The notes under the pieces: model-generated
The model's input: only the letters and a program-made list of their open reading frames with translations
What the model was told of the DNA's origin: nothing
Databases searched by the model: none
Program-made: the position numbers and the translations under genes
Origin: Winogradskyella helgolandensis
Lineage (GTDB): Bacteria > Bacteroidota > Bacteroidia > Flavobacteriales > Flavobacteriaceae
Direction: 5' to 3'
Length of the DNA stretch: 64,000 bases
Assembly (NCBI RefSeq): GCF_013404085.1
Contig: NZ_JABFHO010000002.1
Coordinates: forward strand, 1-64,000
Part shown: positions 1 through 44,192 of the stretch, piece by piece
How the letters are laid out: the number at the start of each line of letters is the position of its first letter
Numbering within the stretch: the first letter of the stretch is position 1

Positions 1-81
1 TTCGGAATTTTCTCTGGCAAGTTTTTGTTTACTAAATTAGTTGCTTAACCACGCAACTAACCATACACAACAACGTTAGGG
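1..81 (+). repeat. attC site 0, truncated by the window edge
   Basis: Only the right half is present: the right half of the central hairpin, the arm GCAACTAACCATACA and R' GTTAGGG at 75-81. It closes a cassette lying left of the window. Confidence 0.85.
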
Positions 82-91
82 TACATTTGAG

Positions 92-796
92 ATGAACGAC
101 ATAGATTTATTACATAATTGGTGCTTTGGGTGTGATAATCACAAAAAATCTCTGAAAGGTCCTATTTGTAAAATCACAGAAAAAAAACCAGATTTTGATA
201 ATTCATGCAATCTTTATGTTGGAAACAATGAAAAACTGAAAAAAAGTCAACAAAAACTGATTGAAATTAACCTTAAAGACGATAGGTACTTTGAGAAAAT
301 TAAACCAACTTTTTTAACGAAAGAACTAAATAACTTACCCAATGAACTAATCTTAAGAAATAAAAAATTCGATTTGAAGTTTGTTTATCTTTTGCTTTTG
401 GATTTCTTCGGAGCTTATTTTATTCATTATTTCACAAATGACACGCTAAACATCCTGAATTTAGAATTCTTAAAAATTTTCGGAATTCTTACAGTCTTTT
501 CAATTCCTATATTTGGATTTATGTTAGCGAAAATGGCAGACCAATCTGAACAAATAAGGCTCTCAAAAACTGGAATAAGAATTGAAAATAAAGCTTTAAT
601 AAGTTGGACTAATTGTTTCACTTACATTTTGACTAAATATGCAAGTACAGATGGAGAAGCATCTTGGATGCGAAATGAATTTTTAGTTATTAAGAAGCCG
701 TTTGAGAAAGAAATTATGGTCTCAATTGATAGTTTAGAAAAGAAACCATCTGAATTGAGTAATTTAATGGAGAATTATAAAAAAAACGTACCCTAA
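92..796 (+). CDS. Membrane protein with Cys-rich N-terminus (cassette 1)
   Basis: 234 aa, not recognised. The N-terminus carries Cys11, Cys14, Cys26 and Cys39 in a zinc-ribbon-like spacing. Two hydrophobic helices follow at about residues 97-115 and 127-147, then a soluble tail of about 85 residues that could be a PH-like domain (inference). The ATG lies 15 bases after the cassette border. The TAA stop is inside the R'' box of the following attC, so gene and site are fused without spare DNA. Confidence 0.75.
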   Translation: MNDIDLLHNWCFGCDNHKKSLKGPICKITEKKPDFDNSCNLYVGNNEKLKKSQQKLIEINLKDDRYFEKIKPTFLTKELNNLPNELILRNKKFDLKFVYLLLLDFFGAYFIHYFTNDTLNILNLEFLKIFGILTVFSIPIFGFMLAKMADQSEQIRLSKTGIRIENKALISWTNCFTYILTKYASTDGEASWMRNEFLVIKKPFEKEIMVSIDSLEKKPSELSNLMENYKKNVP

Positions 797-925
797 CACC
801 GTGTATAATTAATTGCTTGGTTCTAGCCTACTTGCGAAAATTCCTGCGGAATTTTCACGGGTTCGTGAAAGTTTACTAATTTAGTTGCTTAACCACGCAA
901 CTAACCATACACAATCACGTTGTGG
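791..925 (+). repeat. attC site 1
   Basis: R'' 791-797 is complementary to the cassette start at 75-81; R' 919-925. Main arm type: TGTATAATTAATTGC against GCAACTAACCATACA. Central hairpin GAAAATTCC-TGC-GGAATTTTC. Confidence 0.88.
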
Positions 926-938
926 TGCATTTAAGAAA

Positions 939-1442
939 ATGAATGAGATAATAGAAAAATCGTCGGAAAAAGTAAAAGATCAAATGGAATTTTGGTTTTT
1001 TGGGTTTTTCGGTAAAGAAAAATCTGATTTCAATGGAACCGAAATATTTACTCTGTTCGATTTAATTCCTGAATCAGAAAAAAGCGAGTTTATTAAAAAA
1101 ATGGAATTGAAAAAAAACGAAATTCCTGTTTTGATTTTAAAAATATCGGAATCTGAATTTATTATAAACTCAACTCACAAATTTGTTCTTTTGGATAGTT
1201 CTAAATCTGAATTCATTGAATATCCTGAATTTGAATGGCACAACGGATTTAAAGCCTTTGTGACTAACAGAGAAGATGGAATAAGTGTTAAGCAAAATGG
1301 ACATTTAGCTGATTTTAGAATTCGAAAGACAAACGGAGAGATAATAACCCGAAAAATACCGACAGGCGAACCTGGTTTTGCCTTTTGGAATGTTACTAAA
1401 AAATGTGAGTTAATTGGGAGAAAATATAAAATCACAGAATGA
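939..1442 (+). CDS. Hypothetical soluble protein (cassette 2, gene 1)
   Basis: 167 aa from the ATG at 939; no signal peptide or membrane segment, acidic and beta-rich in appearance, no motif I recognise. The frame stays open upstream into the attC, but a start there would encode attC-derived residues, so the first ATG after the cassette border is preferred. Its TGA overlaps the ATG of the next gene (ATGA), suggesting translational coupling. Confidence 0.65.
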   Translation: MNEIIEKSSEKVKDQMEFWFFGFFGKEKSDFNGTEIFTLFDLIPESEKSEFIKKMELKKNEIPVLILKISESEFIINSTHKFVLLDSSKSEFIEYPEFEWHNGFKAFVTNREDGISVKQNGHLADFRIRKTNGEIITRKIPTGEPGFAFWNVTKKCELIGRKYKITE

Positions 1443-1852
1443 AAACAGCATTTAATCTAAAATTAATATTAAGCTTAAACCTAATCAATTGTTCTGGTAA
1501 TAAAAATATCAAAAATGATAAAAGTAAAATAAAAATGGAACTGATGGTTTTATCAAACTATGGTGCTGATGAAAAAATAATTTCTAATAGCACAACTATT
1601 GAACAGATTAAGAGCACTATGAATGAACTGAATTGGAATAATTTTCATCAAGTTGTACTTTCGACTAATGACAGCAACTGGATTGAAGTTGGAGGAAACT
1701 TGAACGAAGATGGACTTTCTTCTATGTATGAGGAAAATGGAAAACAATTCATTATAAATGAACCACCATCGTCTAAAAAACATATGACAGAAATTCTCAT
1801 TTCTTACTTCAAAGGAGATGGGAAATTTAAAAGAGAAAATAAGTTTGAATAA
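1439..1852 (+). CDS. Putative small lipoprotein or immunity-like protein (cassette 2, gene 2)
   Basis: 137 aa. The N-terminus (KLILSLNLINC) looks like a short lipoprotein signal with Cys18 as the lipidated residue. The mature part contains a 'WIEVGG' beta segment that faintly recalls Imm1-type immunity proteins; this is only a resemblance. It overlaps the upstream gene by 4 bases, so the two are probably made together. Confidence 0.6.
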   Translation: MKTAFNLKLILSLNLINCSGNKNIKNDKSKIKMELMVLSNYGADEKIISNSTTIEQIKSTMNELNWNNFHQVVLSTNDSNWIEVGGNLNEDGLSSMYEENGKQFIINEPPSSKKHMTEILISYFKGDGKFKRENKFE

Positions 1853-1861
1853 AAAACGACA

Positions 1862-1996
1862 CCACAACAACGTGTATAATTAATTGCTTTGGTCGTTGCT
1901 TATTTGGAAAATTCCTTCGGAATTTTCTCGCGTTCGTTTTTGTTTACTAAATTAGTTACTGAAACACGCAACTAACCATACACAAAACCGTTAGCG
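1862..1996 (+). repeat. attC site 2
   Basis: R'' 1862-1868 mirrors the cassette 2 start (GTTGTGG). R' 1990-1996. Main arm type with the left spacer AACAACG instead of AACACCG; hairpin GGAAAATTCC-TTC-GGAATTTTC. Confidence 0.88.
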
Positions 1997-2032
1997 GTAA
2001 TGCGAAAAAAATCCTACTTCTGAATTAAAGAT

Positions 2033-3103
2033 ATGCCAAAAAACACAAATTCACAAAAAATAGGTTCAGCAGGACACAGCATTGCCGAAACTCAAATTAA
2101 GTTATCTGAAGTTTGGATTGCTCGCAACCTTACTGAAGACTTTGGAATTGATATAGAGTTAGAATTTTCACCAACTGACGATGAAGTTGAAGGTAAATTT
2201 ATAAAGGCTCAAATTAAGTCGCACAAGAAAATTGAAATTCATAGCGGAATTTTAACCGAATCTTTTTCTAAATCCTTTCTACGATATGTCTATGAATGTA
2301 GAATACCAATAATTTTAATTATTGTGGAAACAAGTACGTCAAATTCTTGGTATGTATGGATACAAAAATGGCTTATTGATAGTGGAAACAGTACTAATAT
2401 ATACGATGAAAGCCAAAATAAAAGTATGTCAGTACAAATAAATACTGAAAATGATTTTAAACGAGCATTAAAAAGAGATTTGATTTCAATTGCATCTTGG
2501 GAAAACAAAACACAATTATATATTGCCGTTAAGGACTTGGCAAGTTTATCATTAAGAATGTATGATGATAAACTTTCGGAGTTATTATTTGGGTATTTAG
2601 AAGAATTGAAATCAGCCAATCCAAATGACCCAGATTACATTGATTTACTCTTAAATAGAGTAATTGAATTGGGTACAGGAATTTGGGCTACAAATGAAGG
2701 CAATAAAGTTTCGCAAATGCTATTCTCATTTTTGAGAGAAAATGGAAATAAAATAAATGCTGACCACATTTCAAAACTTGTTATTAGAGGAAAAGATTGT
2801 TCAAGAACAGGAATAAATGCGCTAGGCTTGCTTTATGATAATTACCCAGAACATACTGCATCCTTAAAATTAATAAGCAGATTTAAGAATTTTGATGACC
2901 CAAGATTATTTTATTATTGTTCTATTAGAGAAAGATTTTTGGGTACAAAAAGTCCAAGTTGGCTAAATGAAAAGAATGATTTAAATTTAGGTAAAATTAA
3001 AACCGATTTTTCAGAAATTAATACCAGTATATTTGATAAATGGGCAAATCGTGGAGATAGTGTGATTTTCGATTATGTCTATTTTGACGGAGAAAAAAAA
3101 TAA
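2033..3103 (+). CDS. DUF4365 domain protein, copy 1 (cassette 3)
   Basis: 356 aa. The N-terminal 150 residues match my recollection of DUF4365, a PD-(D/E)XK-like fold often found in defence loci: 'DFGIDIELEF' near residue 36 followed by 'KAQIKS' near residue 59 gives the D...E...QxK arrangement. The remainder is helical and unrecognised. An identical protein is encoded at 12933-14003. Nuclease activity and a defence role are inferences. Confidence 0.8.
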   Translation: MPKNTNSQKIGSAGHSIAETQIKLSEVWIARNLTEDFGIDIELEFSPTDDEVEGKFIKAQIKSHKKIEIHSGILTESFSKSFLRYVYECRIPIILIIVETSTSNSWYVWIQKWLIDSGNSTNIYDESQNKSMSVQINTENDFKRALKRDLISIASWENKTQLYIAVKDLASLSLRMYDDKLSELLFGYLEELKSANPNDPDYIDLLLNRVIELGTGIWATNEGNKVSQMLFSFLRENGNKINADHISKLVIRGKDCSRTGINALGLLYDNYPEHTASLKLISRFKNFDDPRLFYYCSIRERFLGTKSPSWLNEKNDLNLGKIKTDFSEINTSIFDKWANRGDSVIFDYVYFDGEKK

Positions 3104-3118
3104 AATATAAAGCACTAC

Positions 3119-3253
3119 CGCTAACACCGTGTATAATTAATTGCTTGGTTCTTCACTACTTGCGAAAATTCCTGCGGAATTTTCTCTGGTCCGTAAAAGT
3201 TTGCTAAATTAGCTACCCAACCACGCAACTAACCATACACAAACACGTTGGCA
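3119..3253 (+). repeat. attC site 3
   Basis: R'' 3119-3125 mirrors the cassette 3 start GTTAGCGGTA over ten bases; R' 3247-3253. Main arm type; hairpin GAAAATTCC-TGC-GGAATTTTC. Same sequence as the site at 14019. Confidence 0.9.
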
Positions 3254-3309
3254 GTAATTAAAAACTCACTCAAAACCAAAACTGAATTAAGACTTATAAA
3301 AGTAAATTT

Positions 3310-3570
3310 ATGAATGAAAGAGTTTTAATTATTTTAAGAAAACTGATAAATGTATTGAGATATATTTTTACAGGATTTTGGGGATTTTTAACAATAATTG
3401 TTATCATATATTTAATTCATAGATATTCAAATCCTGGTTGGAAAAGTATTTCAAATCGAGACTTAAAAGATTATGGAAAAATTAGTTTAATCTTTTTTTC
3501 AATATTCGGAATCTTGACATTTTTAAAATATTCTATAACTAAAAAATTGAATAAAAATGAAGAAAAGTAA
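3310..3570 (+). CDS. Small two-helix membrane protein, copy 1 (cassette 4, gene 1)
   Basis: 86 aa with hydrophobic helices at about residues 14-34 and 58-73 separated by a short polar loop, and a Lys-rich C-terminus. No known family. The same protein is encoded at 18222-18482 in a second copy of the whole cassette. Confidence 0.65.
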   Translation: MNERVLIILRKLINVLRYIFTGFWGFLTIIVIIYLIHRYSNPGWKSISNRDLKDYGKISLIFFSIFGILTFLKYSITKKLNKNEEK

Positions 3571-3624
3571 AACTTTGAAAGTTTAAAAAATCCATTTGAA
3601 ATTTATAAGGTGAATTTAAAGTTT

Positions 3625-3687
3625 ATGAAAAAGAATAAAAAAGGAGGAAATACAATCAAAATAAAAGAATATTTATTAAAGAAATAA
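3625..3687 (+). CDS. Possible 20-aa basic peptide (cassette 4)
   Basis: Short ORF MKKNKKGGNTIKIKEYLLKK between the two larger genes. It holds eight lysines. Its own sequence contains the purine run AAAGGAGGA, so it may be only a ribosome-binding region. It is retained unchanged in the second cassette copy (18537-18599), which says little because the whole cassette is duplicated. Confidence 0.25.
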   Translation: MKKNKKGGNTIKIKEYLLKK

Positions 3688-3699
3688 ATTGAAACCATT

Positions 3700-4047
3700 G
3701 TGAGAGATTATAACTATTTAATGGAAAAATTTTCATCATTAATTTACGGATTAACTACAGGAAAAGGTAATATTAAAGAACGACTTATCGTAAATTCGGT
3801 TGAACTTCATATGACATTTGGACTTGAATTCCCTGAAGAATTTAAAGACCAAAAGAATGAAATTATAAGTCGTTTGACAAAATTCTCAGCATTAATGGAA
3901 GATAGTGAAATTATTATGAGTTCTTATAATCGAACGATTTCAAAATGTCGATATAATACTATTGTAGAATTAACAGAATTAATAGCTAATTTACATTTAG
4001 ATATGCAATTCTATTTAAGAACTCTGAAAACTTCCCGAAAAGAATAA
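3700..4047 (+). CDS. Helical protein, four-helix-bundle-like, copy 1 (cassette 4, gene 2)
   Basis: 115 aa from a GTG start; an ATG seven codons downstream (3721) is an equally possible start. The sequence is almost entirely amphipathic helix, which recalls four-helix-bundle proteins, but I see no diagnostic motif. It follows the small membrane protein in the same cassette, and both recur at 18222-18959. Confidence 0.6.
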   Translation: MRDYNYLMEKFSSLIYGLTTGKGNIKERLIVNSVELHMTFGLEFPEEFKDQKNEIISRLTKFSALMEDSEIIMSSYNRTISKCRYNTIVELTELIANLHLDMQFYLRTLKTSRKE

Positions 4048-4081
4048 CAAAAATAGATTAAACATCTGAAAAAATAACTAC

Positions 4082-4212
4082 TGCCAACACCGTATATAAT
4101 TTATTGCTAGTTCTAGCCTACTTACGAAAATCCTCGCGGATTTTCTATTCGGTTTTTATTTGCTAAATTACGTGCTAAACCACGCAACAAACCATATACA
4201 AACACGTTGGCG
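4082..4212 (+). repeat. attC site 4
   Basis: R'' 4082-4088 mirrors the cassette start GTTGGCAGTA; R' 4206-4212. Second arm type: TATATAATTTATTGC against GCAACAAACCATATA. Hairpin GAAAATCC-TCGC-GGATTTTC. Confidence 0.9.
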
Positions 4213-4721: not shown

Positions 4722-4852
4722 CGCCAACACCGTATAAAAATAATTGCGGTTTAGTGCTTAATCAAAGGTCGTTGCGTGTTTGTAACGTCTATTTTCCTTC
4801 GGAAAATCCTCGCATACAAACCCGCAACTATTCTTATACATAAACGTTATGC
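4722..4852 (+). repeat. attC site 5
   Basis: R'' 4722-4728 mirrors the cassette start GTTGGCG; R' 4846-4852. Third arm type: TATAAAAATAATTGC against GCAACTATTCTTATA. Hairpin ATTTTCC-TTC-GGAAAAT. Confidence 0.87.
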
Positions 4853-6179: not shown

Positions 6180-6312
6180 GCATAACACCGTATAAAAATA
6201 ATTGCGGTTTAGTGCTTAATCCAAAAGTCGTTGCGTGTTTGTAACGTCTGATTTTCCTTCGGAAAATCCTCGCATACAAACCCGCAACTATCCTTATACA
6301 TAAACGTTACCA
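6180..6312 (+). repeat. attC site 6
   Basis: R'' 6180-6186 (GGGCATAAC with flank) mirrors the cassette start GTTATGCCC; R' 6306-6312. Third arm type; hairpin GATTTTCC-TTC-GGAAAATC. Confidence 0.87.
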
Positions 6313-6324: not shown

Positions 6325-6966
6325 ATGACGACATTTATAGTTTTAATAACAATATTTTCAGGAATTAGTTTAGTGCTGATTTTGAAAAAATATGACTTTC
6401 CAAAACTGGAAAAAGTTATTAGAAAAATCTCATTTTACTCTTTAATCGGAATTTTAATCTGTATTGTACTTCTGGTTTTTGACTTCCGACCAAAAGGAAA
6501 ATACACAACCTCAATAATTGGACTGACATTCTTGCTGTCTACAATTCTACTTTTCGGATTGACTAAAAACAGTTTGACCAAAATATTGAGCAGAATTTTG
6601 ACAATACCAATTTTCATTTTCGGAATATTAAGTATGTTTTGGGAAATGGGATTTGTGTTTTTTTATTTAATCACTTTGCCATTTCAGCCACCTTTTTCAA
6701 AATCTGAAATTAATGCTAATCATAACGTAGAAGTACGAGTTGGCGGATTTTTCGCTTGTGGAGAAAGTTTAGTAATTACAAAATCCGAATTTGGAATTTT
6801 AGACAAACAGCATTATGTCGGAAATAACTTTTACATGACTGGAATCGATAAAATTGAAACTTTAGAATTTAAAGAAAATGATGTGGAATTTTTAATATAT
6901 CACGATGGAAAAACTGAATTTGAAAACCCATATAAATATCAACCTGAAATGAAAAACGTGTGGTAA
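6325..6966 (+). CDS. Polytopic membrane protein (cassette 7)
   Basis: 213 aa with about four hydrophobic helices in the first 125 residues and a soluble C-terminal domain of about 85 residues. Not recognised. The ATG lies 17 bases after the cassette border, following the leader CATTTGCGAA that many cassettes share. The stop TAA is part of the attC R'' box. Confidence 0.68.
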   Translation: MTTFIVLITIFSGISLVLILKKYDFPKLEKVIRKISFYSLIGILICIVLLVFDFRPKGKYTTSIIGLTFLLSTILLFGLTKNSLTKILSRILTIPIFIFGILSMFWEMGFVFFYLITLPFQPPFSKSEINANHNVEVRVGGFFACGESLVITKSEFGILDKQHYVGNNFYMTGIDKIETLEFKENDVEFLIYHDGKTEFENPYKYQPEMKNVW

Positions 6967-7093
6967 CACCGTGTATAATTAATTGCTTGTTTCTAGCCTA
7001 CTTACGAATATTCCTGCGGAATATTCTATTCGGTTTTTATTTGCTAAATTAGTTGCTCAAACACGCAACTAATCATACACAAACACGTTGTGG
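6961..7093 (+). repeat. attC site 7
   Basis: R'' 6961-6967 mirrors the start GTTACCACAC over ten bases; R' 7087-7093. Main type with right arm GCAACTAATCATACA, which restores pairing at one of the three usual mismatches; hairpin GAATATTCC-TGC-GGAATATTC. Confidence 0.88.
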
Positions 7094-7661: not shown

Positions 7662-8045
7662 ATGAAGAAAGAAAAGATTTTAAAAATAATATCTCTATCA
7701 TCATATTCGTTAATTATATTAATGGGACAAATGATAGGTATCCCTTTTATCTTTTGGCTTATATGGACAAGTTTTGAATTTGGAAATAATGACCAAATAT
7801 TTGCTATTTTAGGACTTATTGGTCTAATTCTGAACTTTACTAAATATTATAAGAGGACAATTATAAAAATAATGAGTTTTTCTTTAATGCTTATTCCAAT
7901 TATTAGAAGATTAACAGAAATACCGTTTGAAAAGTTTAAATATCTCGCTTTTCAAATACCTTTAATTATTTTTATTATTACCACTATAATCTTAATATTA
8001 ACATCAATCTGGACGAAAAAAAACGCACCACAACACCGTGTATAA
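7662..8045 (+). CDS. Four-helix membrane protein (cassette 8, gene 2)
   Basis: 127 aa with four hydrophobic helices. It is clearly paralogous to the protein at 31018-31398 (shared 'SLIxLMGQMIGxPFIFWLI', 'SFEFGN', 'DQIFAI'). The frame runs through the attC R'' box, so the last residues, PQHRV, are attC-encoded. Both paralogues are the second gene of their cassette. Confidence 0.65.
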   Translation: MKKEKILKIISLSSYSLIILMGQMIGIPFIFWLIWTSFEFGNNDQIFAILGLIGLILNFTKYYKRTIIKIMSFSLMLIPIIRRLTEIPFEKFKYLAFQIPLIIFIITTIILILTSIWTKKNAPQHRV

Positions 8046-8162
8046 TTAATTGCTTTGGCAAGTGATTATTTGGAAAATTCCTTCGGAATTTTCTCGCGTT
8101 CGTTTTTGTTTACTAAATTAGTTGCTTAAACACGCAACTAACCATACACAACAACGTTGGTT
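8028..8162 (+). repeat. attC site 8
   Basis: R'' 8028-8034 mirrors GTTGTGGTGC; R' 8156-8162. Main type; hairpin GGAAAATTCC-TTC-GGAATTTTC. The left 15 bases also code for the end of the upstream gene. Interior matches site 14. Confidence 0.88.
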
Positions 8163-9101: not shown

Positions 9102-9236
9102 AACCAACACCGTGTATAATTAATTGCTTTTTAAGTGCTTACTTGCGAAAATTCCTGCGGAATTTTCACGGGTTCGTAAAAGTTTGCTAAATTAGTTGCT
9201 TTACCACGCAACTAACCATACACATCAACGTTAGCA
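9102..9236 (+). repeat. attC site 9
   Basis: R'' 9102-9108 mirrors GTTGGTTGCA over ten bases; R' 9230-9236. Main type; hairpin GAAAATTCC-TGC-GGAATTTTC. Confidence 0.88.
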
Positions 9237-10029: not shown

Positions 10030-10163
10030 TGCTAACACCGTATATAATTTATTGCTGGCTTTTTGCCTACTTGCGAAAGTCCTCGCGGACTTTCTTGATC
10101 GGTAATTATTTACTAAATTAGTTGCTTGAAACACGCAACAAACCATATACAACAACGTTGTAA
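10030..10163 (+). repeat. attC site 10
   Basis: R'' 10030-10036 mirrors GTTAGCACCA over ten bases; R' 10157-10163. Second arm type; hairpin GAAAGTCC-TCGC-GGACTTTC. Confidence 0.88.
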
Positions 10164-10636: not shown

Positions 10637-10743
10637 CGAAAAAACAGGATTTTAAATCTGTGAAAAAATTAAATCACAAACGTTGCGGAAATGGAATTAA
10701 AAAATTGAGTTTAAAAAAAAAATAAACTAAGAAAAAAAACGTT

Positions 10744-10878
10744 TTACAACACCGTGTATAATTAATTGCTAGGTTCTTGCCTACTTGCGAAAATTCCTGC
10801 GGAATTTTCACGGGTTCGTTAAAGTTTACTAACTTAGTTGCTTAACCACGCAACTAACCATACACAAAACCGTTGGCA
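10744..10878 (+). repeat. attC site 11
   Basis: R'' 10744-10750 mirrors GTTGTAAAA; R' 10872-10878. Main type; hairpin GAAAATTCC-TGC-GGAATTTTC. Confidence 0.88.
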
Positions 10879-10891: not shown

Positions 10892-11581
10892 ATGACGATA
10901 AACATCAAAAAAACTCTTGAAATTGGAAAAGTCCGAGAACTTTTAAATGAAAACGAGACTTTATTGTTTGTTGTGACTGATGAGAAATTAACCAGAAGTT
11001 ATGTATTAGAATTACAAAAAGAATTGCCTAATTATGTCGTGACTCGAATGGAATGGCTGAATAAACTGAATATTGTTCCAAGTATATCAACAAAAGTAGT
11101 TTTAGAAAATATACTTGAATTTCATAATTGTATTGAATTGTTTGATAAAACAGCTCATTCTCTAATGAACCTATTGGCTGAAACGTTCGACATTAATCTG
11201 AATAACTCTAATGAGGTTTACGAATTAAAAACCAAAAGAAGCGAAAATCAAAGAGGAGAAATAAATAATGAATGGAAATATCATTTTCACGGAAAAAGTT
11301 GCTCATTTACAAACACAAATACGGAGCAGTTTTTAGATATTCAAATTAACAACGGAATTGAGTTTGGAGAATTGGACACTTATTATTTGATGAAATTTAT
11401 TCAAACAACGGAATCACTAAAAAAAGCAAGTCAAATTTTAGACAATAAGACTGAAAATATGAGAAAAGTAATTGAAACATTATGGAGTTTTGATTATCTA
11501 ATAGAGTTACCAAATGGAATAAATAATGAATTAATATTAAACCGGAACAAAAAGCCTGTTGCCAACACCGTGTATAATTAA
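10892..11581 (+). CDS. Hypothetical protein, DUF6896-like (cassette 12)
   Basis: 229 aa from the ATG at 10892. The central 'WKYHFHGKSCSFTN' and 'YYLMKFI' recall the DUF6896 family (from memory, not verified). It is a clear paralogue of the protein at 35717-36409, which sits beside a quite different attC. The frame runs through R'', so the C-terminal NTVYN is attC-encoded. The frame is also open upstream through the previous attC, but that start is rejected. Confidence 0.65.
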   Translation: MTINIKKTLEIGKVRELLNENETLLFVVTDEKLTRSYVLELQKELPNYVVTRMEWLNKLNIVPSISTKVVLENILEFHNCIELFDKTAHSLMNLLAETFDINLNNSNEVYELKTKRSENQRGEINNEWKYHFHGKSCSFTNTNTEQFLDIQINNGIEFGELDTYYLMKFIQTTESLKKASQILDNKTENMRKVIETLWSFDYLIELPNGINNELILNRNKKPVANTVYN

Positions 11582-11691
11582 TTGCTAGTTATAGCCTACT
11601 TACGAAAGTCCTCGCGGACTTTCTATCTGTGATTTATTTGCTAACTTTAGTGCTTAAACACGCAACGAAATCATACACAAACACGTTGGCA
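11560..11691 (+). repeat. attC site 12
   Basis: R'' 11560-11566 mirrors GTTGGCAACA in part; R' 11685-11691. Left arm TGTATAATTAATTGC; right arm GCAACGAAATCATACA has one extra base. Hairpin GAAAGTCC-TCGC-GGACTTTC. Close relative of site 17. Confidence 0.85.
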
Positions 11692-12024: not shown

Positions 12025-12157
12025 TGCCAACAATGTATAAAAATAATGCGTAGTTTAGTACCGATCAAGAGTAAATGCTTGTTTGCTTGCTTATGATTTT
12101 CCTGCGGAAAATCCTCGCAAACAAACACCGCACTATTCTTATACGTAACCGTTGCCA
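12025..12157 (+). repeat. attC site 13
   Basis: R'' 12025-12031 mirrors GTTGGCAT; R' 12151-12157. Third arm type with covaried inner end: TATAAAAATAATGCG against CGCACTATTCTTATA. Hairpin GATTTTCC-TGC-GGAAAATC. Confidence 0.85.
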
Positions 12158-12761: not shown

Positions 12762-12896
12762 TGGCAACACCGTGTATAATTAATTGCTTTGGCAAGTGAT
12801 TATTTGGAAAATTCCTTCGGAATTTTCTCGCGTTCGTTTTTGTTTACTAAATTAGTTGCTTAAACACGCAACTAACCATACACAATCACGTTAGCG
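12762..12896 (+). repeat. attC site 14
   Basis: R'' 12762-12768 mirrors GTTGCCAGTA over ten bases; R' 12890-12896. Main type; interior matches site 8; hairpin GGAAAATTCC-TTC-GGAATTTTC. Confidence 0.88.
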
Positions 12897-14147
12897 GTAA
12901 TGCGAAAAAAATCCTACTTCTGAATTAAAGATATGCCAAAAAACACAAATTCACAAAAAATAGGTTCAGCAGGACACAGCATTGCCGAAACTCAAATTAA
13001 GTTATCTGAAGTTTGGATTGCTCGCAACCTTACTGAAGACTTTGGAATTGATATAGAGTTAGAATTTTCACCAACTGACGATGAAGTTGAAGGTAAATTT
13101 ATAAAGGCTCAAATTAAGTCGCACAAGAAAATTGAAATTCATAGCGGAATTTTAACCGAATCTTTTTCTAAATCCTTTCTACGATATGTCTATGAATGTA
13201 GAATACCAATAATTTTAATTATTGTGGAAACAAGTACGTCAAATTCTTGGTATGTATGGATACAAAAATGGCTTATTGATAGTGGAAACAGTACTAATAT
13301 ATACGATGAAAGCCAAAATAAAAGTATGTCAGTACAAATAAATACTGAAAATGATTTTAAACGAGCATTAAAAAGAGATTTGATTTCAATTGCATCTTGG
13401 GAAAACAAAACACAATTATATATTGCCGTTAAGGACTTGGCAAGTTTATCATTAAGAATGTATGATGATAAACTTTCGGAGTTATTATTTGGGTATTTAG
13501 AAGAATTGAAATCAGCCAATCCAAATGACCCAGATTACATTGATTTACTCTTAAATAGAGTAATTGAATTGGGTACAGGAATTTGGGCTACAAATGAAGG
13601 CAATAAAGTTTCGCAAATGCTATTCTCATTTTTGAGAGAAAATGGAAATAAAATAAATGCTGACCACATTTCAAAACTTGTTATTAGAGGAAAAGATTGT
13701 TCAAGAACAGGAATAAATGCGCTAGGCTTGCTTTATGATAATTACCCAGAACATACTGCATCCTTAAAATTAATAAGCAGATTTAAGAATTTTGATGACC
13801 CAAGATTATTTTATTATTGTTCTATTAGAGAAAGATTTTTGGGTACAAAAAGTCCAAGTTGGCTAAATGAAAAGAATGATTTAAATTTAGGTAAAATTAA
13901 AACCGATTTTTCAGAAATTAATACCAGTATATTTGATAAATGGGCAAATCGTGGAGATAGTGTGATTTTCGATTATGTCTATTTTGACGGAGAAAAAAAA
14001 TAAAATATAAAGCACTACCGCTAACACCGTGTATAATTAATTGCTTGGTTCTTCACTACTTGCGAAAATTCCTGCGGAATTTTCTCTGGTCCGTAAAAGT
14101 TTGCTAAATTAGCTACCCAACCACGCAACTAACCATACACAAACACG
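12891..14147 (+). repeat. Second copy of the DUF4365 cassette
   Basis: Identical, in every stretch I compared, to 1991-3247 (offset 10900), including the attC. Similarity begins at CGTT of the upstream site and ends at GTTG of its own site; flanks differ outside. The borders coincide with the G/TT crossover points. Confidence 0.9.
12933..14003 (+). CDS. DUF4365 domain protein, copy 2 (cassette 15)
   Basis: 356 aa, identical to the protein encoded at 2033-3103. The DUF4365-type PD-(D/E)XK-like region is at residues 1-150 and the remainder is helical. Its neighbours differ from those of the first copy, so this cassette moved or was copied alone and recently. Defence role inferred from the family. 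Confidence 0.8.
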   Translation: MPKNTNSQKIGSAGHSIAETQIKLSEVWIARNLTEDFGIDIELEFSPTDDEVEGKFIKAQIKSHKKIEIHSGILTESFSKSFLRYVYECRIPIILIIVETSTSNSWYVWIQKWLIDSGNSTNIYDESQNKSMSVQINTENDFKRALKRDLISIASWENKTQLYIAVKDLASLSLRMYDDKLSELLFGYLEELKSANPNDPDYIDLLLNRVIELGTGIWATNEGNKVSQMLFSFLRENGNKINADHISKLVIRGKDCSRTGINALGLLYDNYPEHTASLKLISRFKNFDDPRLFYYCSIRERFLGTKSPSWLNEKNDLNLGKIKTDFSEINTSIFDKWANRGDSVIFDYVYFDGEKK

Positions 14148-14153
14148 TTGTGT
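14019..14153 (+). repeat. attC site 15
   Basis: R'' 14019-14025; R' 14147-14153. Identical to site 3 up to the core GTTG, after which the next cassette differs. Confidence 0.9.
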
Positions 14154-14557: not shown

Positions 14558-14690
14558 ACACAACACCGTATAAAAAAAATTGCTAGTTTTAGCTAAACCA
14601 AAGTTAGTTGCTCGTTTGCTAGCTTCTGATTTTCCTTCGGAAAATCCTCGCAAACAAACACGCAACTTTCCTTATACATAAACGTTATGT
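14558..14690 (+). repeat. attC site 16
   Basis: R'' 14558-14564 mirrors GTTGTGTGTA; R' 14684-14690. Third arm type: TATAAAAAAAATTGC against GCAACTTTCCTTATA; hairpin GATTTTCC-TTC-GGAAAATC. Confidence 0.87.
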
Positions 14691-16502: not shown

Positions 16503-16634
16503 ACATAACACCGTGTATAATTCATTGCTAGTTATAGCTTGCTTACGAAAGTCCTCGCGGACTTTCTATCTGTGATTTATTTGCTAACTTTAGTGCTTAA
16601 ACACGCAACGAAATCATACACAAACACGTTAGCA
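16503..16634 (+). repeat. attC site 17
   Basis: R'' 16503-16509 mirrors GTTATGTGCC over ten bases; R' 16628-16634. Arms as in site 12, with one extra right-arm base; hairpin GAAAGTCC-TCGC-GGACTTTC. Confidence 0.85.
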
Positions 16635-18165: not shown

Positions 18166-18221
18166 GTAATTAAAAACTCACTCAAAACCAAAACTGAATT
18201 AAGACTTATAAAAGTAAATTT

Positions 18222-27744: not shown

Positions 27745-27879
27745 GCCCAACACCGTGTATAATTAATTGCTTCATTCTAGCCTACTTGCGAAAATTCCTG
27801 CGGAATTTTCACGGGTTCGTAAAAGTTTGCTAACTTAGTTGCTAAACCACGCAACTAACCATACACAAACACGTTACCT
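27745..27879 (+). repeat. attC site 30
   Basis: R'' 27745-27751 mirrors GTTGGGCACA with one mismatch in ten; R' 27873-27879. Main type; hairpin GAAAATTCC-TGC-GGAATTTTC. Confidence 0.87.
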
Positions 27880-28665: not shown

Positions 28666-28799
28666 AGGTAACACCGTATATAATTTATTGCTGGCTTATT
28701 GCCTACTTGTGAAAGTCCTCGCGGACTTTCTTGGTCGGTAATTATTTACTAAATTAGTTGCTTGAAACACGCAACAAACCATATACAACAACGTTGTAA
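28666..28799 (+). repeat. attC site 31
   Basis: R'' 28666-28672 mirrors GTTACCTGTA; R' 28793-28799. Second arm type; hairpin GAAAGTCC-TCGC-GGACTTTC. Confidence 0.88.
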
Positions 28800-29367: not shown

Positions 29368-29501
29368 TTACAACACCGTGTATAATTAATTGCTTTTTTA
29401 GGCTTACTCACGAAAATTCCTGCGGAATTTTCTCTGGTCCGTAAAAGTTTGCTAAATTAGTTGCTCAACCACGCAACTAACCATACACAAAACCGTTACC
29501 A
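29368..29501 (+). repeat. attC site 32
   Basis: R'' 29368-29374 mirrors GTTGTAAGCA; R' 29495-29501. Main type; interior the same as site 27. Confidence 0.88.
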
Positions 29502-30430: not shown

Positions 30431-30563
30431 TGGTAACACCGTATATAATTTATTGCTGGCTTCTAGCTTACTTACGAAAGTCCTCTCGGACTTTCTTTGT
30501 CGGTAATTATTTACTAAATTAGTTGCTTGAAACACGCAACAAACCATATACAACAACGTTGTG
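30431..30563 (+). repeat. attC site 33
   Basis: R'' 30431-30437 mirrors GTTACCAATA; R' 30557-30563. Second arm type; hairpin GAAAGTCC-TCTC-GGACTTTC. Confidence 0.88.
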
Positions 30564-31017: not shown

Positions 31018-31398
31018 ATGGGGAAAACTCTGAAAATAATTTCTCTGACATCATATTCTCTCATATTTCTTATGGGACAAATGATTGGACTTCCATTTAT
31101 TTTTTGGCTGATATTTACAAGTTTTGAGTTTGGGAATAGTGACCAAATATTTGCCATTTTTGGACTAATAGGAGTAATTCTGAATTTTACCAAACATAGT
31201 AAGTCCAGACTTGTAAAAATATTAAGTTTTGTTCTTATGCTTACACCAATCGCAAGACGAATTACTGAAATACCAATCGAGAAATTTAATTATTTAGCTT
31301 TTCAAATTCCCCTTTTGATTTTTGTAATTACTTATCTGATTTACATATTAAAACAGAATGAAAATAAAAAAACTGTACACAACACCGTGTATAATTAA
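31018..31398 (+). CDS. Four-helix membrane protein (cassette 34, gene 2)
   Basis: 126 aa, paralogue of the protein at 7662-8045 with strong similarity along its length. Four hydrophobic helices. The frame crosses R'' of the attC, so the C-terminal residues HNTVYN are site-encoded. The first genes of the two cassettes are not obviously related. Confidence 0.65.
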   Translation: MGKTLKIISLTSYSLIFLMGQMIGLPFIFWLIFTSFEFGNSDQIFAIFGLIGVILNFTKHSKSRLVKILSFVLMLTPIARRITEIPIEKFNYLAFQIPLLIFVITYLIYILKQNENKKTVHNTVYN

Positions 31399-31510
31399 TT
31401 GCTTCATTGAGCTTACTTGCGAATATTCCTGCGGAATATTCACAGGTTCGTAAAAGTTTGCTAAATTAGTTGCTTAACCACGCAACTAACCATACACAAA
31501 CACGTTAGCC
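31377..31510 (+). repeat. attC site 34
   Basis: R'' 31377-31383 mirrors GTTGTGTACA; R' 31504-31510. Main type; hairpin GAATATTCC-TGC-GGAATATTC. Its left end codes for the end of the upstream gene. Confidence 0.88.
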
Positions 31511-32107: not shown

Positions 32108-32242
32108 GGCTAACACCGTGTATAATTAATTGCTTTGGCAAGTACTTATTTGGAAAATTCCTTCGGAATTTTTTCGGGTTCGTATTTGTTTACTAAATTA
32201 GTTGCTTAACCACGCAACTAACCATACACAACAACGTTGTGC
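32108..32242 (+). repeat. attC site 35
   Basis: R'' 32108-32114 mirrors GTTAGCCACA; R' 32236-32242. Main type; hairpin AAAATTCC-TTC-GGAATTTT. Confidence 0.88.
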
Positions 32243-33054: not shown

Positions 33055-33185
33055 GCACAACACCGTATATAATTTATTGCTAGTTCTAGCCTACTTACGA
33101 AAATCCTCGCGGATTTTCTATTCGGTTTTTATTTGCTAAATTAGGTGTTTAAACACGCAACAAACCATATACAAAACCGTTGTGC
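33055..33185 (+). repeat. attC site 36
   Basis: R'' 33055-33061 mirrors GTTGTGCTT; R' 33179-33185. Second arm type; hairpin GAAAATCC-TCGC-GGATTTTC. Confidence 0.87.
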
Positions 33186-33919: not shown

Positions 33920-34054
33920 GCACAACAACGTGTATAATTAATTGCTTTGGTCGTTGCCTATTTGGAAAATTCCTTCGGAATTTTCTCGCGTTCGTTTTTG
34001 TTTACTAAATTAGTTGCTGAAACACGCAACTAACCATACACAAAACCGTTGGCA
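33920..34054 (+). repeat. attC site 37
   Basis: R'' 33920-33926 mirrors GTTGTGCAAC; R' 34048-34054. Main type with AACAACG spacer like site 2; hairpin GGAAAATTCC-TTC-GGAATTTTC. Confidence 0.88.
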
Positions 34055-35568: not shown

Positions 35569-35702
35569 TGCCAACACCGTATATAATTTATTGCTGGCTT
35601 CTCGCCTACTTACGAAAGTCCTCGCGGACTTTCTTGGTCGGTAATTATTTACTAAATTAGTTGCTTAAAACACGCAACAAACCATATACAACAACGTTAT
35701 CT
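35569..35702 (+). repeat. attC site 38
   Basis: R'' 35569-35575 mirrors GTTGGCAGTA; R' 35696-35702. Second arm type; hairpin GAAAGTCC-TCGC-GGACTTTC. Confidence 0.88.
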
Positions 35703-35716: not shown

Positions 35717-36409
35717 ATGACTATAGACATTAAAGAACCTCTGGAAACCAAAAAAGTGAAGAGTCTTTTAGATGAAAATGAGACTTTATTATTTGCCTTA
35801 ACTGAACAGGAATTTAGTAGAGATTATGTTGTTAATCTTCAAAAAGAATTACCTGATTATCTTGTCAGTGAAATTAAGTGGATGAATAAACTTTATATAG
35901 TTCCCAGCATTTCTTCTAAAATAGTAATGGAAAATTTAAATGGGTTTTATAAGTGCATTGAACTATTTGACAAGACAGCTCATTACCTTATGAACCTTAT
36001 GGCTGATACTTTTAACATTAATCTAAACAATTCAAGTGAATTACACGATTTAAAGAGAAATAGAAGTGATAAACAAAGAGGAAATATAAATGATGAGTGG
36101 AAATATCATTTTCACGGAAAAGGATGCTCATTTACTAATTCAATTACTGATCAATTCTTAGATGTGCAAATTATCAATGGTCTTGAATATGGAGAATTAG
36201 ACACATATTATTTAATGAAGTTTATTCAAACAACAGAATCTTTAAAAGAAATGAGTACTGTTTTAAACAATGAATCAAATAATATGAAAAAGGTGATTGA
36301 AATATTAAGGCTGAATGATTATTTAGTGGAATTACCAGAAGCACTTGATGATGGTCTAATAATAAATCGGAATAAAAAACCGGTAGATAACACGGTGTAT
36401 AAAACATAG
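35717..36409 (+). CDS. Hypothetical protein, DUF6896-like (cassette 39)
   Basis: 230 aa. Paralogue of the cassette 12 protein: 'WKYHFHGKGCSFTN', 'YGELDTYYLMKFIQTTESLK' and the N-terminal 'LLDENETLLFA' are shared. The C-terminal DNTVYKT is encoded by the attC R'' region, as in the paralogue, although the two attC sites belong to different types. Confidence 0.65.
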   Translation: MTIDIKEPLETKKVKSLLDENETLLFALTEQEFSRDYVVNLQKELPDYLVSEIKWMNKLYIVPSISSKIVMENLNGFYKCIELFDKTAHYLMNLMADTFNINLNNSSELHDLKRNRSDKQRGNINDEWKYHFHGKGCSFTNSITDQFLDVQIINGLEYGELDTYYLMKFIQTTESLKEMSTVLNNESNNMKKVIEILRLNDYLVELPEALDDGLIINRNKKPVDNTVYKT

Positions 36410-36581
36410 CTAGTAAGTCCTAAACCGGAAGGTTAGTGTATATTTATAATGTCCGCCAAATTTTTAAATTTGGCTTTTAGAATAGAAAAATTAAAAACAA
36501 AACATAAAAATTCGGCTCTGTATTAATCCGAAAAGTAAGCGTCTTTTTATACGCTACGTTTCATACACAAGTCCGTTGTAC
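36385..36581 (+). repeat. attC site 39, long type
   Basis: R'' 36385-36391 mirrors GTTATCTAC; R' 36575-36581; 197 bp. Arms TGTATAAAACATAGC against GCTACGTTTCATACA keep the fixed A.C positions but differ in sequence. Central hairpin GCCAAATTT-TT-AAATTTGGC. Confidence 0.82.
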
Positions 36582-37378: not shown

Positions 37379-37511
37379 GTACAACACCGTGTATAATTAA
37401 TTGCTTGGTCACTGCCGACTTACGAACATTCCTTCGGAACGTTCTATCTGTGATTTATTTGCTAAATTAGATGTTTAACCACGCAACTAACCATACACGA
37501 ACACGTTGTAC
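37379..37511 (+). repeat. attC site 40
   Basis: R'' 37379-37385 mirrors GTTGTACACA over ten bases; R' 37505-37511. Main type; hairpin GAACATTCC-TTC-GGAACGTTC with one A.C pair. Confidence 0.87.
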
Positions 37512-38020: not shown

Positions 38021-38154
38021 GTACAACACCGTGTATAATTAATTGCTTCATTGAGCCTACTTGCGAATATTCCTTCGGAATATTCACTGGTTCGTAAAAG
38101 TTTGCTAAATTAGTTGCTTAACCACGCAACTAATCATACACAAACACGTTGTAA
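38021..38154 (+). repeat. attC site 41
   Basis: R'' 38021-38027 mirrors GTTGTACCTA; R' 38148-38154. Main type with right arm GCAACTAATCATACA; hairpin GAATATTCC-TTC-GGAATATTC. Confidence 0.88.
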
Positions 38155-39599: not shown

Positions 39600-39732
39600 T
39601 TACAACACCGTGTATAATTAATTGCTAGGTCACTGCCGACTTACGAACATTCCTGCGGAATATTCTATCTGTGATTTATTTGCTAAATTAGTTGCTTAAC
39701 CACGCAACTAACCATACACAAACACGTTGTAC
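39600..39732 (+). repeat. attC site 42
   Basis: R'' 39600-39606 mirrors GTTGTAACCA over ten bases; R' 39726-39732. Main type; hairpin GAACATTCC/GGAATATTC with one mismatch. Confidence 0.87.
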
Positions 39733-40390: not shown

Positions 40391-40525
40391 GTACAACACC
40401 GTGTATAATTAATTGCTTTGTTCTTCCCTACTTGCGAATATTCCTGCGGAATATTCACGGGTTCGTAAAAGTTCACTAATTTAGTTGCTTAACCACGCAA
40501 CTAACCATACACAAAAACGTTGTGT
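40391..40525 (+). repeat. attC site 43
   Basis: R'' 40391-40397 mirrors GTTGTACACA; R' 40519-40525. Main type; hairpin GAATATTCC-TGC-GGAATATTC. Confidence 0.88.
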
Positions 40526-41090: not shown

Positions 41091-41225
41091 ACACAACACC
41101 GTGTATAATTAATTGCTGGGTTCTTCCCTACTTGCGAAAATTCCTGCGGAATTTTCACGGGTTCGTAAAAGTTTGCTAACTTAGTCGCTAAACCACGCAA
41201 CTAACCATACACAATCACGTTGCCC
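41091..41225 (+). repeat. attC site 44
   Basis: R'' 41091-41097 mirrors GTTGTGTGTA; R' 41219-41225. Main type; hairpin GAAAATTCC-TGC-GGAATTTTC. Confidence 0.88.
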
Positions 41226-42000: not shown

Positions 42001-42196
42001 GGGCAACAACGTATATAGCTCATAGCTAATAAGTTGCTTAATCGAAATTAAGGCGTATTTGGAAAGTCGCCAAATTTTTAAATTTGACGATTTCCAATAA
42101 AAAAGATAAATAGTAAAATTTAAAAATCTGGCTTGTGCTCAACCGAATAGTTATCACTATTTTACACGCTACGAGCCATATACACGACCGTTGCCA
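42001..42196 (+). repeat. attC site 45, long type
   Basis: R'' 42001-42007 mirrors GTTGCCCACA over ten bases; R' 42190-42196; 196 bp. Arms TATATAGCTCATAGC against GCTACGAGCCATATA pair except for two A.C positions. Extended central hairpin around AAATTT-TT-AAATTT. Confidence 0.84.
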
Positions 42197-42237: not shown

Positions 42238-43008
42238 ATGAAAAACCACTTTTTAGTTTATTTTATTGCCATTTCCACTCTTTTCTCTTGTAATAATCAA
42301 CAAGAAGAATTGAATGAAATGAACTCATTTTTAAAAACGAATTATGAATTCAGCAATAGAATTTTAGACTCGAACAGAGCAGATTATTATACCTTAATTC
42401 AAGAAAAACCTTCGCTAAAGATTGAGGAACTAAATCAGTTGGATTCACAACTTGATAAATTGATTTTCAAAATAGACAATGCGATTTTAAATAAAGAATT
42501 TGATTTGGAAAAGACAATCGCAGAATCAAACCACATCTTGCGTGAACTTAAAAAAATCGTAAAACATATAGAAGATTATTCATTTCAAGAATTTGAACAA
42601 CCAAAAACAAATTCAAATGAGTTGGTTCTAAATTATTTAAAGAACAGACTTGTAATTGCAACGATTAATGCTTTTGAATATGCAAATGGTTTTACTTCTA
42701 CAGAACCTAAATTTGAAAGAGCAGTTGATAGCATTATTACAAGTAAAACTGAAAACGGAATTAAACTTACTTTGACCTCGAAGTTTGGACAATCAATAAC
42801 TGAAAATAGACACGTTGTAATAAACAGTATTAAGTTCAATGGACAGGAAAAAAAGGTTTATTTCAAATTAAAAGACAACTATTCTTTTGCTGATATTGAA
42901 TTTGATTCATTACAAAGTGGAACATATAAAATAGATGGTCTTTTAAAATTCTACGGAAGATATGGAGAAGTAGAATCTTGGTTTGAAAGAGAATTTATAG
43001 TGGAATAA
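42238..43008 (+). CDS. Lipoprotein with helical and beta domains (cassette 46)
   Basis: 256 aa. Signal 'FLVYFIAISTLFSC' with lipidated Cys18. Residues about 25-125 are helical ('QLDKLIFKIDNAIL', 'ILRELKKIVKHIED'), then a beta domain to the C-terminus ending 'EVESWFEREFIVE'. The layout faintly recalls GldM-like proteins, but it is too short and I do not make that call. Confidence 0.64.
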   Translation: MKNHFLVYFIAISTLFSCNNQQEELNEMNSFLKTNYEFSNRILDSNRADYYTLIQEKPSLKIEELNQLDSQLDKLIFKIDNAILNKEFDLEKTIAESNHILRELKKIVKHIEDYSFQEFEQPKTNSNELVLNYLKNRLVIATINAFEYANGFTSTEPKFERAVDSIITSKTENGIKLTLTSKFGQSITENRHVVINSIKFNGQEKKVYFKLKDNYSFADIEFDSLQSGTYKIDGLLKFYGRYGEVESWFEREFIVE

Positions 43009-43015
43009 AAACTAC

Positions 43016-43150
43016 TGGCAACACCGTGTATAATTAATTGCTATGTCCTAGCCTACTTGCGAAAATTCCTGCGGAATTTTCACGGGTACGTAAATGTTTA
43101 CTAACTTAGTTGCTTAACCACGCAACTAACCATACACAAACACGTTAGCC
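43016..43150 (+). repeat. attC site 46
   Basis: R'' 43016-43022 mirrors GTTGCCAGTA; R' 43144-43150. Main type; hairpin GAAAATTCC-TGC-GGAATTTTC. Last complete site of the array. Confidence 0.88.
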
Positions 43151-43531
43151 GCAATTCATTCGTGCATTTTCTCCTAGTTTATTTTTTGGAGATTTTTTTT
43201 TTGATTTTTAAGACAGATAAATCAGAAAAACTGAACATATAAAAATAAATGTTTACATCAGGCTGAATATCAAAATCTTAAATGCAAAAAAATCGAGCGA
43301 GTATCACATATAGTTCTTTACGTTAGATTTTTTGCTGGGAAATTCCTGACCTTTTACTATCTTTAGTCTATCAACCATGAAAAATAGAACTGTTATTCGC
43401 TACATAACAATAACTTAACTGCTGTGCGCAAGCCCAAAAACACATCAATAAATATTCAAATACGGACATAAAATAATTCAATTAAAAATAAATACTAATT
43501 TTAACTCTAACGGAAAACCCTCTAATTTGAA
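43151..43531. other. Non-coding first half of the chimeric last cassette
   Basis: About 380 bases without a supported ORF. GCTGTGCGCAAGC at 43421 resembles a cassette start (GTTGTGCGC expected from the following R'') with one changed base, so a degraded junction may lie here. A T-rich tract at 43184-43204 and nothing else of note. Confidence 0.4.
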
Positions 43532-43975
43532 ATGGAAAATTCCAAGTCGAAAATAATTAAAGAAATTGCACAAGAATTAGATTGCGGAAATAATTGTTAC
43601 TACAACTCTAAAACTGACGAAATAATAGCTATTCCTAATTTTTCAAACTTCCCGGATGAAGATGAATTTCGAGAATGTTTTAAAGCGGACTTAAAAGCAG
43701 TTCAGAAAAACAAAACGCATTTAATAAAAATTGAGGTTTTAGAAAGTTTTGAGTCTTTTAAAATAATGGAACAATTTATAGAGCAAATTGATGACGTTGT
43801 ATTTAAAACGAAATTGAAAACGATTTTAGAAAATAAAAATCCATTTAAGAACTTTAAAAATTCAATTGATACCTCGGGTTTTAGGCAAGATTGGTTCGAT
43901 TTTAAAAAATTAGAATTGGAAAAAATAGTAGAAACGCAATTAAATAGAAAAAATCCAGCGCACAACATCGTATAA
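43532..43975 (+). CDS. UPF0158 family protein (cassette 47)
   Basis: 147 aa. 'CYYNSKTDEIIAIPNF' near the N-terminus and 'NPFKNFKNSIDTSGFRQDWFDFK' near residue 105 match the pattern of UPF0158, a small acidic family of unknown function. The C-terminal residues HNIV are encoded by the left end of a broken attC. Cytosolic. Confidence 0.75.
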   Translation: MENSKSKIIKEIAQELDCGNNCYYNSKTDEIIAIPNFSNFPDEDEFRECFKADLKAVQKNKTHLIKIEVLESFESFKIMEQFIEQIDDVVFKTKLKTILENKNPFKNFKNSIDTSGFRQDWFDFKKLELEKIVETQLNRKNPAHNIV

Positions 43976-43985
43976 AAAAATTGCT
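43960..43985 (+). repeat. attC site 47, right part missing
   Basis: R'' GCACAAC at 43960-43966 and a left arm of the third type (TATAAAAAAATTGC) are present, but no matching right arm or hairpin follows. R'' does not match this cassette's start (GTTAGCC), so the cassette is a fusion of two. Confidence 0.7.
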
Positions 43986-44192
43986 GTTTTATGTTTTATA
44001 AATGTTAGATATTGAAACACCTAACTAAGCACGGAAAAACACGATAGCAGTAGTGCAGTTAGTATTTTTACATATTTTTTTAATTCTATCTTCAATAAGA
44101 TAAAAATTTTAATATTACGCCATGTTCCAGTAATTTATAGCATTTATTCTTTATAATAATCTTCATATACAAAGTGCTTTTTTTGTTATTAT

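Follow-up and report, generated by a model that had tools for sequence, protein, structure and literature searches.

An integron-like cassette array that appears to be run by an N-terminally extended Xer/XerA-type recombinase in Winogradskyella helgolandensis

The genome of Winogradskyella helgolandensis (Flavobacteriaceae; NCBI RefSeq assembly GCF_013404085.1) is assembled into two contigs, hereafter C1 and C2, with a completeness of 99.97%, and C2 (242,261 bp; NZ_JABFHO010000002.1) begins with the 64,000-nucleotide stretch analysed here (positions 1 to 64,000 of the forward strand; the window). Positions 1–43,990 of the window, read on the + strand, hold the right-hand part of the main cassette array of this genome, with 46 complete attC-like sites, one cut site and one half-site; the left-hand part lies at the end of C1, where it is preceded by a gene for a tyrosine recombinase. 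A first reading of the window, made from its letters alone (the sequence-only reading), had seen here a large cassette array of the integron type, and the unit logic, the orientation and the hairpin sites described below are indeed integron-like. We consider the locus to be, very probably, an integron-like cassette-capture system run not by an integron integrase (IntI) but by an N-terminally extended recombinase of the Xer/XerA type, acting on folded sites that are mostly devoid of extrahelical bases.

The catalogue of complete sites in the window extends from an AAC at 795 to a GTT at 43,144, all on a single strand, and the covariance model R1 (part of whose training sites were taken from this window) recovers these 46 and the cut one; the count and the common direction given by the sequence-only reading were therefore borne out. 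The AAC/GTT core belonged to the search pattern, and four catalogue rows (2528, 13428, 34683 and 36558) were judged false by eye and removed before the count. Measured from the AAC of R'' to the GTT of R', attC-like sites 1 to 46 (+ strand) lie, in order, at 795–921, 1866–1992, 3123–3249, 4086–4208, 4726–4848, 6184–6308, 6965–7089, 8032–8158, 9106–9232, 10034–10159, 10748–10874, 11564–11687, 12029–12153, 12766–12892, 14023–14149, 14562–14686, 16507–16630, 17462–17588, 18036–18161, 18998–19120, 19746–19872, 20724–20850, 21468–21590, 21957–22083, 22570–22696, 23317–23443, 24122–24247, 25766–25891, 26597–26723, 27749–27875, 28670–28795, 29372–29497, 30435–30560, 31381–31506, 32112–32238, 33059–33181, 33924–34050, 35573–35698, 36389–36577 (site 39, long type), 37383–37507, 38025–38150, 39604–39728, 40395–40521, 41095–41221, 42005–42192 (site 45, long type) and 43020–43146 (site 46, the last complete one). 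The site cut by the contig start occupies positions 1–77 (+), with the GTT of its R' at 75–77. At the right end of the array lies a degenerate half-site recognized by eye (43,964–43,984, +; AACATCGTATAAAAAAATTGC), which retains R'' and L'' only and whose R'' does not pair with the start of the last cassette at 43,144; its location agrees with the array end near 43,990 proposed earlier.

The array does not begin at position 1 of the window, as had been supposed, but at C1:4,328,332. A further 31 sites were found by script in the last 28 kb of C1, where R1 adds one more (false rows were again discarded by eye, and for the first C1 site the position of R'' was assigned manually). According to R1, the array comprises 79 bottom-strand sites, 78 of them complete, of which 32 are at the end of C1 and 46 plus the cut one in the window. 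At E ≤ 1, R1 yields 82 matches: these 79 and three weak ones on the opposite strand (E 0.16–0.41; locus L020). The remainder of C2 and the first 20 kb of C1 contain no R1 match, and a search of the window against Rfam at gathering scores returned none either. Since C1 terminates within an insertion-sequence-like transposase that resembles those of the IS3 family, and C2 opens within an attC-like site, the array was evidently broken by the assembly. The gap between the contigs is itself unsequenced; the order from C1 to C2 on a circular chromosome is inferred from a tandem repeat present both where C2 ends and where C1 starts, together with the orientation.

The delimitation of the cassettes was examined by comparing the first ten bases of each cassette (GTTRNNNNNN) with the reverse complement of a ten-base stretch, closing with AAC, that lies at the 5' edge of its own site. 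Over 77 cassettes (31 on C1 and 46 in the window) the mean was 9.75 matches out of ten, with 60 cassettes at 10/10 and 16 at 9/10, compared with a mean of 5.70 and a maximum of 6.32 in 2000 permutations; the lone 7/10 cassette is a mis-assignment in an interrupted 3-kb stretch with a missed site. Delimited in this way, a cassette runs from one GTT point to the next and includes its own site, as the unit of an integron does. The longest open reading frame (ORF) starting with ATG lies on the array strand in 69 of the 77 cassettes and on the opposite strand in 2, whereas 6 have none of 60 aa. The AAC/GTT core is present in all 77 cassettes, yet a GTTRRRY start is found in only 3 of them, and in 7 of 250 when relatives are included.

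Three cassettes are present in two copies, which are identical over the stretches compared (100 bases at the start and 200 at the end). Two of these are the cassettes at 1990–3246 and 3247–4205 (both +), equal in length to those at 12,890–14,146 and 18,159–19,117, respectively, and with other neighbours on both sides. On both sides of the duplicated cassettes identity ends 1–4 bases from CGTT; beyond their left end comes another site, alike but not identical. Furthermore, the gene of cassette 1 (C1:4,328,332–4,329,362) recurs with 86–92% identity at five loci (L107, L065, L076, L089 and L068), including those of Gelidibacter and Xanthomarina, the identity running from the first GTT, or from up to 33 bases inside it, to about 25 bases from R''. 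Because the attC body beyond R'' differs among these loci, site type and gene may be exchangeable. As to gene content, a Pfam scan of 51 window ORFs matched 35 families, and the 25 listed ones occur almost all in single proteins; one ATPase encoded in the window has a likeness to proteins of phage defence, among them AriA, OLD and GajA.

The sites, 123–189 bp in length, fold with cassette-specific pairing. When they were rebuilt as in a free circle and folded with DNA parameters, the bottom strand was the stabler one in 75 of 76 sites (one of the 77 was left out), with a mean energy of −27.5 kcal/mol against −23.1 kcal/mol for the top strand. In 74 sites from this and other genomes, the named structure, composed of a 3-bp core and a 16-bp stem, had 95.1% of its cells paired, against 30–53% for slid versions; it is favoured over them since it was drawn from such sites. 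Fifteen of its 19 pairs have changed on both sides, and its covariation (0.447) exceeds that of shuffled alignments (0.123 ± 0.010). A.C mismatches on the top strand, which are G.T wobbles on the bottom one, make up 22.0% of L-box cells in the 70 distinct sites of this genome, against 0.5% for G.T on top; in 180 sites of other genomes the values are 13.6% and 1.0%, with other mismatches at 15.6%. A single such wobble is conserved in 73 of the 74 sites. Strand stability, pairing with covariation, and the bottom-strand wobbles together suggest that the sites function as the folded bottom strand. The computed bottom-strand hairpin has the R box, unpaired spacer and L box of IntI integrons, for which the folded bottom strand is likewise given as the functional form (PMC2727003). 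The extrahelical bases that IntI integrons carry on the R''-L'' arm are mostly absent: the 16-bp stem is contiguous, with 14 or more pairs and no bulge, in 67 of the 70 distinct sites of this genome and in 106 of the 180 elsewhere, and among the remaining 77 of these 250 sites one extra base helps on the L'-R' arm in 35 and on the R''-L'' arm in 2.

The recombinase gene (C1:4,327,165–4,328,292, +; 375 aa) is followed by the first cassette 39 bases 3' of its stop codon. It thus lies to the left of the window, where the sequence-only reading had placed an integrase, and, contrary to that reading, it reads into the array and not away from it. Nor is it the IntI with an extra helix that had been expected. 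Its best NCBIfam match is NF040815 (XerA-like; 239.5 bits, cut-off 220), while against TIGR02249 (IntI) it reaches 193 bits (cut-off 265), with the match split around profile positions 181–242; two proteins of the group 2 introduced below score 191 and 207 against the latter profile, two true IntI 497, and a search of the whole genome gave no match above its cut-off. We compared two groups of these extended recombinases, group 1 (23 proteins) and group 2 (20 proteins, about 33–40% identical over the whole length and heading arrays with another attI sequence), with 13 IntI. The 42 alignment columns at IntI1 residues 197–247 are filled in at least 60% of the IntI and in less than 15% of groups 1 and 2, and the additional domain specific to IntI (the I2 / patch III region) is absent from the recombinase studied here. 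The six catalytic columns R-K-H-R-H-Y are invariant in all 23 and 20 proteins. About 105 additional residues precede the core-binding domain; they contain a domain predicted as bb-a-bb-a-b (mean predicted local distance difference test score, pLDDT, 85). A sequence search of the PDB found no relative of this domain (best E 1.1), and Pfam gave weak matches only, the best being DUF7397 (E 0.0086; in 6 of 21 members). It may resemble the HARP domain of SMARCAL1.

In a phylogenetic tree, 12 Bacteroidota XerC/D form one clade, separate from groups 1 and 2 (support 100/99), and 14 IntI rows form another (100/100) that excludes both groups. Groups 1 and 2 sit with IntI, away from XerC/D, and placements of the IntI branch inside or beside the extended recombinases are both compatible with the data (approximately unbiased test, p 0.47). 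Many of these proteins carry the generic NCBI label 'site-specific tyrosine recombinase/integron integrase'. Several relatives have a TTCG + CGAATA motif about 30–60 bp before the recombinase start (in L019 near 10,740–10,770; by eye), a possible operator that differs from the GGA-N5-TCC LexA motif reported for Flavobacteriaceae. A second tyrosine recombinase, of phage type and 465 aa, is encoded directly to the right of the array (44,944–46,341) and is oriented towards it. It was considered as the enzyme of the array and rejected, its XerA and IntI scores being low and no match to the attI pattern lying nearby.

Directly behind the stop codon of the recombinase gene lies a palindrome, TGGATATA...TATATCCAATT, followed by GTT; by sequence, it is a candidate attI beside the recombinase gene at the point where the first cassette begins. 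On inspection by eye, 32 of the 34 named loci have such an attI-like palindromic stretch with GTT no more than about 50–70 bases from the stop; in L104 the GTT contains an N and in L111 a T. This genome contains seven matches to the pattern GATATA-N5-11-TATATCYARTTGTTR (reversed control, zero), and 13 of 60 genomes searched have the pattern, all of the same genus. All seven attI-like sites here head a cassette, including those on C1 at 383,097, 1,018,520, 2,249,268, 2,778,757, 4,156,614 and 4,284,435, which have no recombinase gene in the preceding 1.5 kb. Additional arrays or cassettes lie at C1:4,156,641 to about 4,174,300, 4,284,461 to about 4,295,600, and about 2,759,000 to 2,787,400, and at the first three of the six positions just listed. 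Elsewhere, six of seven more attI-like stretches precede a partnered cassette. Across the 60 genomes searched there are 16 orphan attI-like sites, 4 of which retain the last codons of the recombinase gene (by eye). The simplest reading would be that one enzyme serves several attI-headed platforms.

Comparison of close relatives provides evidence of turnover. In the genomes taken as W. psychrotolerans and W. pacifica (one genome per species), the sequence from the flank through the recombinase gene and attI to the first GTT is 94.7% identical, and beyond it the first cassettes differ. A 501-bp unit, 96.8% identical between the two, stands at position 2 in one species and at position 3 in the other, and W. 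psychrotolerans holds a second, related copy. These differences speak for cassettes gained, lost or moved as units and, as far as one genome per species can show, against repeats conserved in place and order, a finding that would have refuted the sequence-only reading.

The spread of the system was assessed by comparing the chain of self-paired cassettes downstream of each recombinase with the longest chain in shuffled sequence; since the pairing is symmetric, the opposite strand is no control and only the shuffles are. In the first set of loci the chain is longer than any shuffled one at 17 of 18 (3 too-short loci uncounted); the figures are 18 of 28 for the named loci (6 uncounted) and 12 of 19 for those of group 2 (1 uncounted). 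At 10 of the 17 positive loci of the first set it begins at the attI-like site. Exceptions within group 2 include G029, which has no array, and G072, whose two cassettes do not rise above the shuffles. In a survey of 199 Flavobacteriaceae genomes from 198 genera (homologue E ≤ 1e-45; sites E ≤ 1e-4, with scoring limited to 16 candidates in each genome), a homologue was found in 125, sites in 175 and both in 124; some of the homologue matches span the core only, and the cross-table was read by eye. Sites are present in 124 of the 125 genomes with a homologue, versus 51 of the 74 without (p = 1.9e-10). Such sites are thus no rarity in Bacteroidota, where the sequence-only reading knew of few large arrays. 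Within the genus itself, all 60 genomes have a site match (72 of 99 when other families are included), and among 39 genomes from other families of the order at least five sites occur in 4 of the 7 with a homologue at E ≤ 1e-60, against none of the 32 others (p = 4e-4); one of these seven homologues (G084) is without the N-terminal part.

Outside the order, the complete circular plasmid pPP2 of Persicobacter psychrovividus (Cytophagales; NZ_AP025294.1; L212, L217) carries 117 R1 matches over about 100 kb (303,372–403,535), with an N-extended recombinase of 379 aa directly upstream that reads into the array; its attI was unlocated. True IntI above the cut-off were found in 105 of 395 GTDB Bacteroidota genomes, among which only G134 belongs to the class of the Winogradskyella genome and no genome belongs to its order or family. 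Around the true IntI of G134 (L155), the own-cassette chain is at most 1 in the surrounding 20 kb (10-bp rule only). The IntegronFinder 2.0 paper reports one complete integron in Bacteroidetes proper, that of Salinibacter ruber (PMC9024848). Eight R1 matches spread over the genome of the Polaribacter phage P12002L (KR136259.1, L211), on both strands, may represent phage-borne attC-like sites.

In the mechanism that we propose, a circular cassette would carry a single attC-like site, whose bottom strand would form a hairpin consisting of the cassette's own R''/R' pair (about 10 bp, ending in AAC/GTT), an unpaired spacer (3 and 6 nt), and then the L box and the stem. The recombinase would join the folded site at its GTT to the attI-like palindrome TATANNNGGATATA-N7/8-TATATCCAATT, just before GTT. 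Since this palindrome lies just behind the enzyme's own stop codon, new cassettes would enter first, in the same direction as the recombinase gene. The same enzyme would also serve, in trans, the other attI-headed arrays of the genome. The genomes themselves display the unit boundaries, the pairing within each cassette, the folding of the bottom strand, the attI-like site at the head, the association of recombinase and sites, and turnover; catalysis by this recombinase, the exact strand of crossover and action in trans are inferred, and second-strand exchange would have to be avoided without the IntI helix. On the points that can be checked in sequence the system works like an integron, yet it falls outside IntI membership. 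We call it integron-like rather than an integron because, of three features taken to define IntI integrons, the additional domain is absent and the GTTRRRY starts and extrahelical bases are mostly lacking.

Several observations weigh against this mechanism. Six of the seven attI-like sites of this genome lack a nearby recombinase gene, and the attI-like site of G025 (L204) lacks a cassette partner. The chain does not start at the attI-like site in 7 of the 17 positive loci of the first set. It fails to exceed the shuffles at 1 of 18 loci in that set (G029, L077), at 10 of the 28 named ones and at 7 of the 19 of group 2, often where little downstream sequence is present; JZB09 (L113) has only one or two weak sites. 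The 51 genomes that hold sites with no recombinase match may reflect orphan arrays, assembly gaps or another enzyme. Finally, the stem of some related sites (35 of 250) has one extra base.

Three other explanations of the array have to be set against an extended recombinase as its enzyme. An ordinary integron, with a canonical IntI bearing the additional domain elsewhere in the genome and the adjacent recombinase as a passenger, would account for the shared R''-L''-L'-R' layout and the GTT/AAC core of attC, and true IntI are common in other classes of Bacteroidota. However, no IntI exceeds the cut-off in this nearly complete genome, the genomes that exceed it include a single one from the same class and none from the same order or family, and GTTRRRY starts are rare both here and overall. 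Moreover, 17 true-IntI loci, most of them with short flanks, yield no R1 match at E ≤ 0.01, and a region from a class 1 integron yields none even at E ≤ 1. For this assembly the idea is refuted, save for an intI in the unassembled gap, which makes it exceedingly unlikely. The genome also has XerC- and XerD-like genes, and the chromosomal XerC/XerD pair might act on the sites as it does in the pdif modules of Acinetobacter, the extended recombinase being incidental; folded units of 123–189 bp whose pairing is specific to the cassette, an attI-like stretch directly behind the extended gene in nearly all named loci, and the fact that the presence of this gene predicts sites make such a role very unlikely.

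The array could also be a fossil or passively kept (a cluster of attC sites lacking integron-integrases, CALIN), its repeats having spread earlier and now undergoing only homologous recombination between near-identical sites. Orphan arrays with no recombinase gene in the preceding 1.5 kb and the decayed half-site at the right end would fit this scenario. Against it, the recombinase is intact and keeps its six catalytic columns, content changes at attI between close species, and the ends of the duplicated cassettes fall at CGTT instead of being scattered over the ~125-bp repeat. We regard a fossil array as unlikely.

Like IntI integrons such as those of class 1 and the Vibrio superintegron, the system has an attI beside a recombinase gene, a one-way array, R''-L''-L'-R' sites with an AAC/GTT core, a bottom-strand fold with an unpaired central spacer, the cassette as unit, and turnover of content. 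Unlike them, it has a recombinase that lacks the IntI insertion and possesses an extra N-terminal domain, an R box that is longer (about 10 bp) and mostly not GTTRRRY, a stem mostly free of extrahelical bases, a recombinase gene that reads into the array, and up to seven attI-like sites per genome. The integrons of Treponema are described with intI (PMC3607928), whereas the enzyme here is of Xer/XerA type. To XerC/XerD and archaeal XerA the recombinase is linked by its best profile match, NF040815 (XerA-like), and by the same six catalytic columns; it differs from them in its ~105 extra residues, its linkage to cassette arrays and a branch apart from Bacteroidota XerC/D. In phages such as CTX, which use XerCD to integrate as a folded single strand (PMC7790495 and PMC4792948), a Xer-type enzyme likewise acts on such a strand without an IntI helix, but there is no cassette array, dedicated recombinase or attI. 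A description of such a system was not found in the literature searched, which contained no preprints and only a minority of subscription journals, including passages of PMC9024848, PMC8138268, PMC8618304, PMC9668308, PMC2426708, PMC2727003, PMC7790495, PMC4792948, PMC3607928, PMC10963911, PMC8352920 and PMC8565304.

Integron integrases are held to have gained single-strand recombination through the I2 helix, which reads the extrahelical bases, and the origin of the integrase and site pair has been termed a chicken-egg paradox (PMC4792948 and PMC7790495). A system with folded attC-like sites, without I2 and mostly without extrahelical bases, would open that question to direct tests. A large bacterial family would in addition hold a big pool of cassettes that published attC and IntI models may miss. 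We see about even chances that integrons come in two kinds, the second having arisen separately or being ancestral: its Xer/XerA-type enzymes would read structure with their N-terminal domain, in the role of the IntI helix, and perform folded single-strand recombination on sites mostly without extrahelical bases in many genera of Flavobacteriaceae and some Cytophagales, one enzyme serving several attI-headed arrays in a cell. Were this true, hairpin cassettes would not require the IntI helix, and the systems described here would be candidates for the missing intermediate in the origin of integrons.

To the right of the array, the window contains between 48,184 and 63,986 genes similar to the candidate defence systems PDC-M62A/B and PDC-M33A/C, together with a type IIG restriction-methylase.

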